Positions 6,382-21,588 of a stretch of DNA of 64,000 bases are shown one piece after another (position 1 is the first letter of the stretch; each line of letters starts with the position of its first letter). The DNA is from Prochlorococcus sp. AG-355-K03. Its GTDB lineage: Bacteria > Cyanobacteriota > Cyanobacteriia > PCC-6307 > Cyanobiaceae. The notes beneath the pieces were generated by a model. The model was not told the DNA's origin. It ran no database searches and worked only from the letters and a program-made list of their open reading frames with translations. The DNA is taken from assembly GCA_003278685.1 (NCBI GenBank), contig QCDS01000001.1, positions 248,001 through 312,000 of the forward strand. The letters run 5' to 3'. The translations under genes and the position numbers were made by a program.

Positions 6382-6528
6382 TTAATTGCAACAAACCAGG
6401 CAATCTTCTTGATTTGGATAATCTATACATTCTTTATTTAAAATTTCTTCTAAAAAATCTACTTTTTTAACATAATCAAGATCTTTTAATTTTTTGTTTG
6501 GAACCGTGAACTGAGTTTGTAGTTTCAT
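6382..6528 (-). CDS. 48-aa protein with CP12-like C-terminal motif
   Basis: Starts at ATG 6528 with a strong AGGAGA ribosome site. The C-terminus reads KECIDYPNQEDCLVCCN, that is C-x3-P-x4-C followed by two more Cys. The same spacing is found in the C-terminal loop of CP12, the redox-controlled linker of GAPDH and phosphoribulokinase. The N-terminal CP12 half is missing. A second protein of this type is at 6732-6884. Redox-dependent binding to a dehydrogenase is inferred only. Confidence 0.65.
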   Translation of the reverse strand: MKLQTQFTVPNKKLKDLDYVKKVDFLEEILNKECIDYPNQEDCLVCCN

Positions 6529-6731: not shown

Positions 6732-6884
6732 TTAATCACAAAAAATCTTGCAATGATTGTTACTCGGATGTTCTGTACATTCATTATTCCAATAAGCTTC
6801 AATTTTTTTGAGCTTATTATCAAATGAAAGGTCTTTTTTATCCAAATTAATTTCTTGGATAGTAAATGTGTCATTTAGTGCCAT
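6732..6884 (-). CDS. 50-aa protein with CP12-like C-terminal motif
   Basis: ATG 6884 is preceded by AAGGGG at good spacing, which makes it a better start than the upstream in-frame codons. The C-terminus is NECTEHPSNNHCKIFCD. It keeps C-x3-P-x4-C plus a hydrophobic and acidic end, close to the CP12 C-terminus. The N-terminal half is polar with no membrane segment. It is paralogous in its last 18 residues to the protein at 6382-6528. Confidence 0.68.
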   Translation of the reverse strand: MALNDTFTIQEINLDKKDLSFDNKLKKIEAYWNNECTEHPSNNHCKIFCD

Positions 6885-9651: not shown

Positions 9652-9706
9652 TTGTTGACATCTAAGTATAAATACTTTATAAATAGATTGTAGTGAATAC
9701 TACAAA

Positions 9707-9787
9707 ATCGTCCGATCTACCATCTGATAGACCGCAGTACGACTCAAGCCATAGGACGGGGACTTGAGCAAGTTTAGGAGCTGCATC
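9707..9787 (+). promoter_or_regulatory. GC-rich structured leader upstream of a YRG-motif gene
   Basis: This 80-base block has much more G and C than the sequence on either side and ends with an AGGAG ribosome site (9776-9780) seven bases before ATG 9788. It contains CTCAAG (9743-9748) and its complement CTTGAG (9763-9768), which could form a hairpin just upstream of the ribosome site. It is probably a 5' UTR with a regulatory structure. Function inferred. Confidence 0.45.
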
Positions 9788-16208: not shown

Positions 16209-16289
16209 GTCAAAATCATCTAAATTCTTCGTATATTTACTTGCGTTTAAAATTGAAAGAGCCTGCAGGTACCCCACCGGCAAGCTCAT
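16203..16289 (-). CDS. 28-aa micro-protein with GC-rich 5' end
   Basis: ATG 16289. MSLPVGYLQALSILNA is encoded by a block far richer in G and C than the surrounding sequence, and the remainder (SKYTKNLDDFDL) is AT-rich. The base composition suggests constraint, either coding or as an RNA structure. Weak ribosome site. Confidence 0.35.
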   Translation of the reverse strand: MSLPVGYLQALSILNASKYTKNLDDFDL

Positions 16290-16578
16290 GACGACCTAGT
16301 TAATTCAGATTTATGAATTTAACCAGCTAAGCACTTCCTAAATGCTATACATATCATACTAAGTAAAATTACTTACTGTGGGTATAAATGCTTATTTTGA
16401 ATGATTGATCTACGAATTTCATAAAAAAAGTGGTTTGATTAAAAAATGTAGACTGTAATTTTTTTAACGGAAATATATCATTTTTACTTATTTAAATATT
16501 CCACGAGAAATCGTCAGAGAGTTTGGTTTACAAAAGTTAATACTTGTGTTACATTACTTAACAATTATTATTTTCTTA

Positions 16579-20996: not shown

Positions 20997-21149
20997 TTAA
21001 TTTGTATCAGAATCGCATGTTAATTCACATTGATTAAGATCATGTGATGATATCTTTTCTAAAATTCTTAACATATCAATTTCGGAAAGCTCTCCATTCG
21101 AGTTCCACTTTAAAGTTGTTTTCCTTTGAGGTGAATTTTTTTTATTCAT
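20997..21149 (-). CDS. 50-aa CX3C micro-protein
   Basis: ATG 21149 lies within the 3' end of the twin-CX3C gene (8-bp overlap), so the two are probably translated together. The protein is polar with a helical centre (SEIDMLRILEKISSHDL) and a single C-x3-C near the end (QCELTC). Not identified. Confidence 0.55.
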   Translation of the reverse strand: MNKKNSPQRKTTLKWNSNGELSEIDMLRILEKISSHDLNQCELTCDSDTN

Positions 21150-21300
21150 TTTGATCACCATTCTTTAAATGAACTTCTAAACAACGAGTAATACACTCTT
21201 GATGACCATCCACAATACTGCATTCAGTAATGCACTCGAAATATGAATCAATAGAATCTATTTCTGTAGTTTGGTTTGTAGAAACAAATGAATCATTCAT
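21142..21300 (-). CDS. 52-aa twin-CX3C micro-protein
   Basis: ATG 21300. The centre reads CITECSIVDGHQECITRC (residues 23-40): two C-x3-C pairs eight residues apart. On two facing helices this would allow two disulfides or a metal site. The rest is polar and acidic. The stop overlaps the next gene's start. Twin-CX3C proteins elsewhere include small helical-hairpin chaperones, but homology is not claimed. Confidence 0.58.
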   Translation of the reverse strand: MNDSFVSTNQTTEIDSIDSYFECITECSIVDGHQECITRCLEVHLKNGDQNE

Positions 21301-21588
21301 AATATTGTTGGATTTATTTGGAATAGAGATATAGCACGAAATTATGTTAGATAATTTAATTTATTAAGTTAATTAGAAAAAATAAGTATTATTTACTAAA
21401 TTTATTTTGCAACTAGTTTACGTTTAAAAAGATAATAATATGCTTCTTTTAAAACAGAAAGGGAAAATATAATTTTGATTATTTAATATTAATTTTATAA
21501 GTTAATCTTTCAAAAAATCAGCATAAAGACTGATTTACTTTTCAGTAATTTAGTTAGAAGATAAAAAAGTACACTTTTAGATTTTCAA

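Follow-up and report, generated by a model that had tools for sequence, protein, structure and literature searches.

Genes A and B at the locus

The window, the whole 64,000-nucleotide stretch of Prochlorococcus DNA that was analysed, is AT-rich and contains two very small overlapping genes, A and B, on the reverse strand. The window copy of A lies on a 334-kb contig of a cell genome, between two fatty-acid desaturase genes. The features of the locus are as follows.

21142–21300, reverse strand: gene A, 52 aa, a CX3C-x8-CX3C micro-protein, homologue by sequence comparison of PHROG 665
20997–21149, reverse strand: gene B, 50 aa, with a KTTLKW..NGELS.IDM.RIL core and a C-terminal CX3C
21153–21159, reverse strand: GGTGATC, part of the Shine-Dalgarno complement before B, in the last codons of A (window sequence; some orthologues have GGAGGTGATC)
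21326–21399, reverse strand: conserved promoter region of A-B with blocks TAGTAAMTAATACTTATTT, CTTAAYAAA and TGCTATATCTC (alignment of 45 unique orthologues)
21380–21399, reverse strand: conserved upstream element TTAGTAAATAATACTTATTT, inverted-repeat-like TAGTA-N5-TACTTA, a putative regulator site (same 45-orthologue alignment)
21329–21336, reverse strand: conserved TGCTATAT, probable extended -10 of the A-B promoter (conserved block, by eye)

The cysteines of protein A are arranged as C23-x3-C27-x8-C36-x3-C40, and protein B carries a CX3C, C41-ELT-C45, near its C terminus. Translation of the two frames bears out an earlier sequence-only reading, which had described A as C-x3-C-x8-C-x3-C and B as overlapping A by 8 bp and ending with one C-x3-C. 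The ATG of B (21149–21147) sits within the 3′ end of A, which creates the 8-bp overlap. An alternative in-frame ATG at 21161, with a 20-bp overlap, is present in the window copy. Its equivalent is found in none of 29 other orthologous loci (L005–L033), so B likely starts at 21149.

A and B are real genes, as judged from the overlap of B with the end of A in 44 of 61 genus genomes, purifying selection and an embedded ribosome-binding site. At E ≤ 1e-3, 195 of the 200 genus genomes searched, including all 66 high-quality ones, have A or a paralogue. B was sought in 61 genus genomes and matched in 51 at E ≤ 0.01, 44 of these at E ≤ 4e-20. In all 44 strong-B genomes, A is located directly upstream of B on the same contig and strand with overlapping ends, according to a comparison by eye of the A and B match lists. 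Among 45 unique orthologous A-B pairs, A has a median dN/dS of 0.141 over 897 comparisons and B one of 0.113 over 865, where the comparisons are not independent of each other; these values indicate purifying selection on both genes. Each Cys codon of A and B is seen both as TGT and as TGC in the 45 pairs. Internal stops in three listed A matches (G018, G088, and G097) count against gene reality.

Distribution and paralogues

Within the taxonomic family, a profile of A (A1) matches 145 of 151 genomes, including all 94 high-quality ones, and 55 of 59 genera. The corresponding profile of B (A2) matches 117 of the 151 genomes and 73 of the 94. Among 292 Cyanobacteriota, A (profile A3) is found in 37 genomes: 36 belong to f1, the window's family, and the remaining one, from outside it, is a weak match at 6e-4. 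B (profile A4) is found in 36, all of f1, with no match outside that family among the 292. On the cell side, as far as searched, A and B seem confined to this bacterial group.

The genome of the window itself contains four A-type places. The loop between the two CX3C pairs varies from 6 to 10 residues across the family; most loops have 6 or 8 residues, and lengths of 7, 9, and 10 are rare. Loop-length parity was considered as evidence for strands and dropped, as there were too few independent events.

Translational coupling and promoter region

An exact Shine-Dalgarno complement of at least 5 nt occurs in the 22 nt before the B start in 57 of 64 unique A-B pairs, namely 35 of 37 pairs with a short B and 22 of 27 with a long B. 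As a control, 17 of 97 A genes without B have a complement of at least 5 nt within the 27 nt that precede their stop. This difference supports the earlier claim that A and B are co-translated. The B start has an offset of -8 in 32 of the 37 short-B pairs and of -4 in 17 of the 27 long-B pairs. The arrangement points to an operon in which two very small proteins are encoded by translationally coupled genes.

Three conserved blocks lie within roughly 100 bp before A in the 45 unique orthologues. The probable extended -10 at 21329–21336, TGCTATAT, was not among the sites of a promoter consensus scan. The upstream element at 21380–21399 has a copy with 0–1 mismatch before A in all eight genomes searched. 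It was rejected as the mark of a wider regulon: beyond the eight sites before A, the eight genomes contain 10 two-mismatch places, compared with 4 for a reversed-pattern control. Three of the two-mismatch copies recur inside the end of one 253-aa gene and are read as coding sequence, and no other recurrent intergenic site was seen among the other loci, nine of ten of which were read.

Cysteine conservation and the two forms of B

The four cysteine columns of A are occupied by Cys in 162/162, 161/162, 161/162, and 161/161 unique profile matches from all loci examined, counts that are favored by a profile built from Cys-bearing proteins. The exceptions are one Tyr (L218) and one Ala; L218 and a phage A without one Cys (L223) were kept in the counts. 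A histidine near the end of A is common and is missing in phage members. No further metal-ligand residue conserved through the whole A family was found in the alignment. The alignments (A3–A7) contain one representative per near-identical protein set, chosen by Cys or LKW patterns.

Both cysteines of B are invariant in 45 close orthologues. In the wider set, the CX3C of B is present in 80 of 87 unique B cores linked to A and in 58 of 76 unlinked ones, which argues that it is neither obligatory nor tied to A and that the second Cys of B is dispensable. The expectation that all six cysteines are conserved therefore held for the four of A and, among close orthologues, for the two of B, but not for the CX3C of B at large.

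Many B proteins of other lineages, from single-cell Prochlorococcus contigs, are 107–144 aa long; we take these lineages to be low-light types. The long B consists of an N-terminal part joined to the LKW core, with the N-terminal motif GGSIxC..CSxxxCxYxxDLHSAK (L303:3001–3393 and relatives). Three Cys and one His of this part are invariant in 11 aligned members; among further members the His is variable. In the window's clade, B is short and lacks this part. In loci fetched for a B relative, on contigs nearly all titled Prochlorococcus, A is directly upstream by pattern in 26 of 68 B ORFs. Together with the 76 unlinked against 87 linked unique cores, this makes B without A common. Conversely, no B profile match near A was found in the 4–6.5 kb examined at five divergent loci (L035–L038 and L040).

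Fold of protein A

AlphaFold2, run on A with 36 alignment rows, predicts strands at residues 20–30 and 33–43, a locally confident β-hairpin. The mean pLDDT is 69.8, rising to 94 for residues 21–30 and 95 for residues 31–40. The strand register of the model implies that the cysteines would pair as C23–C40 and C27–C36. Chou-Fasman means slightly favor strand as well. However, the hydrophobic periodicity of both arms, taken as means, is strongest at 90–110°, the helical angle (permutation p 0.03–0.11), and shows no peak at 160–180° (p 0.30–0.86). AlphaFold and hydrophobic periodicity thus disagree on strands or helices. The disulfide-locked helical hairpin of the earlier reading is accordingly one of two candidate folds, and the redox or metal partnership that it suggested for A and B is a putative one. 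Both geometries would give nested Cys pairs, but only the helical one could bind one ion with all four cysteines.

This last property bears on the possibility that A is a metal-binding micro-protein in which the four Cys of a helical hairpin would ligate Zn, Cu, or Fe-S; A would then act as a metal buffer or chaperone, with B as delivery partner. The four near-invariant cysteines would suit such a role, and the helical periodicity of both arms would bring them together. A paralogue with a 10-residue loop (L069:3985–4140; contig C29 in the window's own genome) also lies beside WD40, CobW-type GTPase, and ZnuA-like genes, named by reading, in eight of nine loci; at the ninth (L427), the search pattern missed A where the profile had matched. 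However, this paralogue is convergent to the Zn-type genes and stands outside their operon, and the genomes are congeners. Were the β-hairpin correct, the Cys pairs would lie about 13 Å apart and could not share one ion. The alignment offers no additional conserved ligand either, the terminal His being lost in phage members. We regard metal binding as rather doubtful, ranking close behind the redox thiol hairpin described below.

Foldseek at E ≤ 0.001 returned no match for A in PDB or BFVD, and none for the long B in PDB. The model of the long B is poor (mean pLDDT 54), and the best VIA-align result for it (Z 5.6, rmsd 3.2, 57 aligned) is below a telling level. Among sequences of solved structures, the best matches are a venom peptide at E 0.068 for A and a match at E 1.1 for B, both taken as chance.

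Twin CX3C helical hairpins include proteins of the small Tim/CHCH type and plant α-hairpinins. A shares their CX3C-xn-CX3C spacing, but its loop is 6–10 residues, AlphaFold predicts strands, and it has no credible relative among solved structures. The tachyplesin type comprises two-disulfide β-hairpins. If the AlphaFold model is right, A would resemble them in its twin CX3C with nested cross-strand pairs; unlike them, it is acidic, longer, and presumably cytosolic, and the likeness is architectural only. The Pfam Defensin-like family PF24552 was rejected at 16.7 bits against a gathering score of 27 bits. Lanthipeptide precursors (prochlorosins) have a conserved leader and a variable Cys-bearing core. 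They were also rejected, since conservation in A lies in the Cys half, with a variable N terminus.

Genomic neighborhood

Forty loci were fetched for A or B, and 32 gave an A-B pair by pattern; in some of the other eight, A or B is present but escaped the pattern or the ORF filter. The flanks differ by clade: the window's clade has desaturase genes, a second has ribosomal-protein-S4-like genes among others, and a third has small proteins. The A-B pair persists while its flanking genes differ, the loci being from related lineages and not independent. In the third clade, a 47-aa membrane-type protein is encoded downstream (10 loci). The third clade also encodes a 70-aa protein ending in WDxECxxHPTxSHCKVYD on the same strand, about 0.9 kb downstream of A/B, in 12 of the 40 loci. 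This end forms a C-x8-C and is CP12-tail-like by eye; four such proteins scanned gave no Pfam match. An OsmC-like ORF, named by reading, occurs in 6 of the 40 loci at varying places.

In 22 of 28 loci, a second paralogue of A, whose loop has 6 residues, comes after an ABC-F-like ATPase gene, and in 20 of 28 it is convergent to an HtrA-like protease gene; the loci span several genera of the family. These names are by reading, and at least three of the 28 loci contain other paralogues. Such a setting could suit a constitutive adaptor or assembly factor, for instance of a photosynthetic or ribosome-associated complex, in which the cysteines of A would serve structure only, as disulfides, or make up a thiol patch that does not switch. 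But synteny alone says little, and purely structural disulfides are unusual in the bacterial cytosol, so that we consider this role unlikely.

Relatives of A in cyanophages

Look-ups in Pfam, NCBIfam, and PHROGs gave one informative family, PHROG 665, the other rows for A and B being weak or below cut-off. The A of the window matches the PHROG 665 profile at E 1.5e-4 and one phage member at 3.7e-14, and the record notes of three of the phage genes read T4-LIKE GC 363. The window protein and the phage members have DxYFECIxxC...CxxxC in common. These matches indicate that A is homologous to the cyanophage family PHROG 665/T4-GC 363. Aligned phage members differ in having mostly a 6-residue loop, their own N termini, and no adjoining B. 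Because it resides on the cell contig between desaturase genes, the window A is a cellular relative of this family and is not phage-encoded.

Relatives of A are encoded on 84 stretches in IMG/VR, of which 80 loci were kept, and in 337 phage records in one search and 361 in another. All these records have cyanophage or marine names except one, Ochrobactrum, probably a chance match at E ≤ 1. Records named Synechococcus or Cyanophage number 338 with A and 449 with gp23, counted without record-by-record matching. Phage tblastn found nothing with the window A or with one viral variant as query; phage-type queries were needed for matches. In six records opened, A lies between a gp46-type gene and a peptidase or small genes, between gp23 and gp3, or unannotated elsewhere.

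None of 55 unique viral A genes has an adjoining B. B-like ORFs occur on five viral contigs and in three phage records, two of which are the same phage. These LKW..DGELS ORFs include L226:3001–3111 of phage P-SSM7, where the ORF lies downstream of psbA and ferredoxin, and those of L118–L122.

The lack of B beside viral A, together with the overlap, coupling, and purifying selection of A and B, would fit an antagonist pair, such as inhibitor and anti-inhibitor, in which the phage carries A to overrule the host B. Yet B is common without A, and no family match for A or B points to a toxin or inhibitor. We judge an antagonist pair to be quite improbable.

A possible redox-switched thiol hairpin

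CP12 is a redox regulator of the Calvin cycle that binds GAPDH and PRK in a redox-dependent manner. Like it, A is a tiny Cys-pair protein common to picocyanobacteria and their phages, possibly with a similar thioredoxin logic. A differs in its CX3C twins, has no AWD_VEE core, and bears no detectable sequence relation to CP12; neither A nor B has a Pfam CP12 row at E ≤ 1. PMC3906501 describes CP12 as an AWD_VEE core with N- and C-terminal Cys pairs, some of which may be absent in cyanobacterial classes. Passages of PMC3037559 and PMC3906501 report that T4-like cyanophages carry CP12.

Our best explanation, held tentatively, is that A is a small cytosolic adaptor under thiol control, built as a hairpin and made together with its partner B. 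It may be switched by redox state and, like CP12, may have been borrowed by phages. A and B would be very small cytosolic proteins of a Prochlorococcus/Synechococcus family. A would form a hairpin of strands or helices, with its four Cys as two nested pairs, C23–C40 and C27–C36. These thiols may close and open with the redox state of the cell, under the action of thioredoxin when there is light. Like CP12, A would then switch between folded and unfolded states and between binding a target and letting it go. B may dock through its LKW..DGEL..D..RIL core, and its CX3C tail may join the thiol chemistry. On this view, cyanophages would bring A without B in order to drive that same target in the host.

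The thiol hairpin is favored by the near-invariant four Cys and by a polar N terminus of A without an obvious signal peptide (by eye). Purifying selection, coupling with an embedded ribosome site, and the retention of the pair beside differing flanks also speak for it. So do the CP12-tail-like protein and OsmC-like ORF at some loci, the A relatives in hundreds of cyanophage records, the carriage of CP12 by T4-like cyanophages, and the Cys pairing implied by the AlphaFold strand limits. It is weakened by the disagreement of the fold methods, by the lack of a fold match at E ≤ 0.001 and of a CP12 match, by A without B in viruses and at the five divergent loci, by the dispensable second Cys of B, and by the non-independence of the loci. 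A more specific proposal, which we think unlikely, places A next to CP12 as another micro-switch of picocyanobacterial metabolism that phages have borrowed and thioredoxin controls. Its hairpin, a Cys ladder, would fold conditionally; the host would make A together with its docking partner B, the phage would make A alone, and A would act on a host enzyme or complex.

A literature search, with most subscription papers outside its reach, found no published work on the host A-B operon, its coupling, or the phage link. Passages of PMC5082946 and PMC5490813 and a text search of PMC2984593 yielded nothing on A or B. A match for GC 363 is a page number only, and one for PHROG 665 reads phrog_6651. 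As far as searched, the phage side is already catalogued as a family of unknown function, and the host operon and its link to that family are undescribed. Among phototrophs, Prochlorococcus and marine Synechococcus are the most numerous. A small protein retained both by picocyanobacteria and by many phages that infect them may act at a control point, either of infection or of photosynthetic metabolism. The analysis ties PHROG 665 to an operon of the host that also has a partner gene, conserved sequence in its promoter region, and defined cysteines, so that the function can be tested directly.

Other features of the window

Two tiny proteins are encoded elsewhere in the window on the reverse strand, at 6732–6884 and 6382–6528. 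One has a CP12-tail-like end, WNNECTEHPSNNHCKIFCD, and the other looks like a degenerate copy; a protein of the same kind follows A-B in another lineage. Rfam identifies a glutamine-II riboswitch at 9706–9768 on the forward strand and a Yfr20 RNA at 16260–16347 on the reverse strand.
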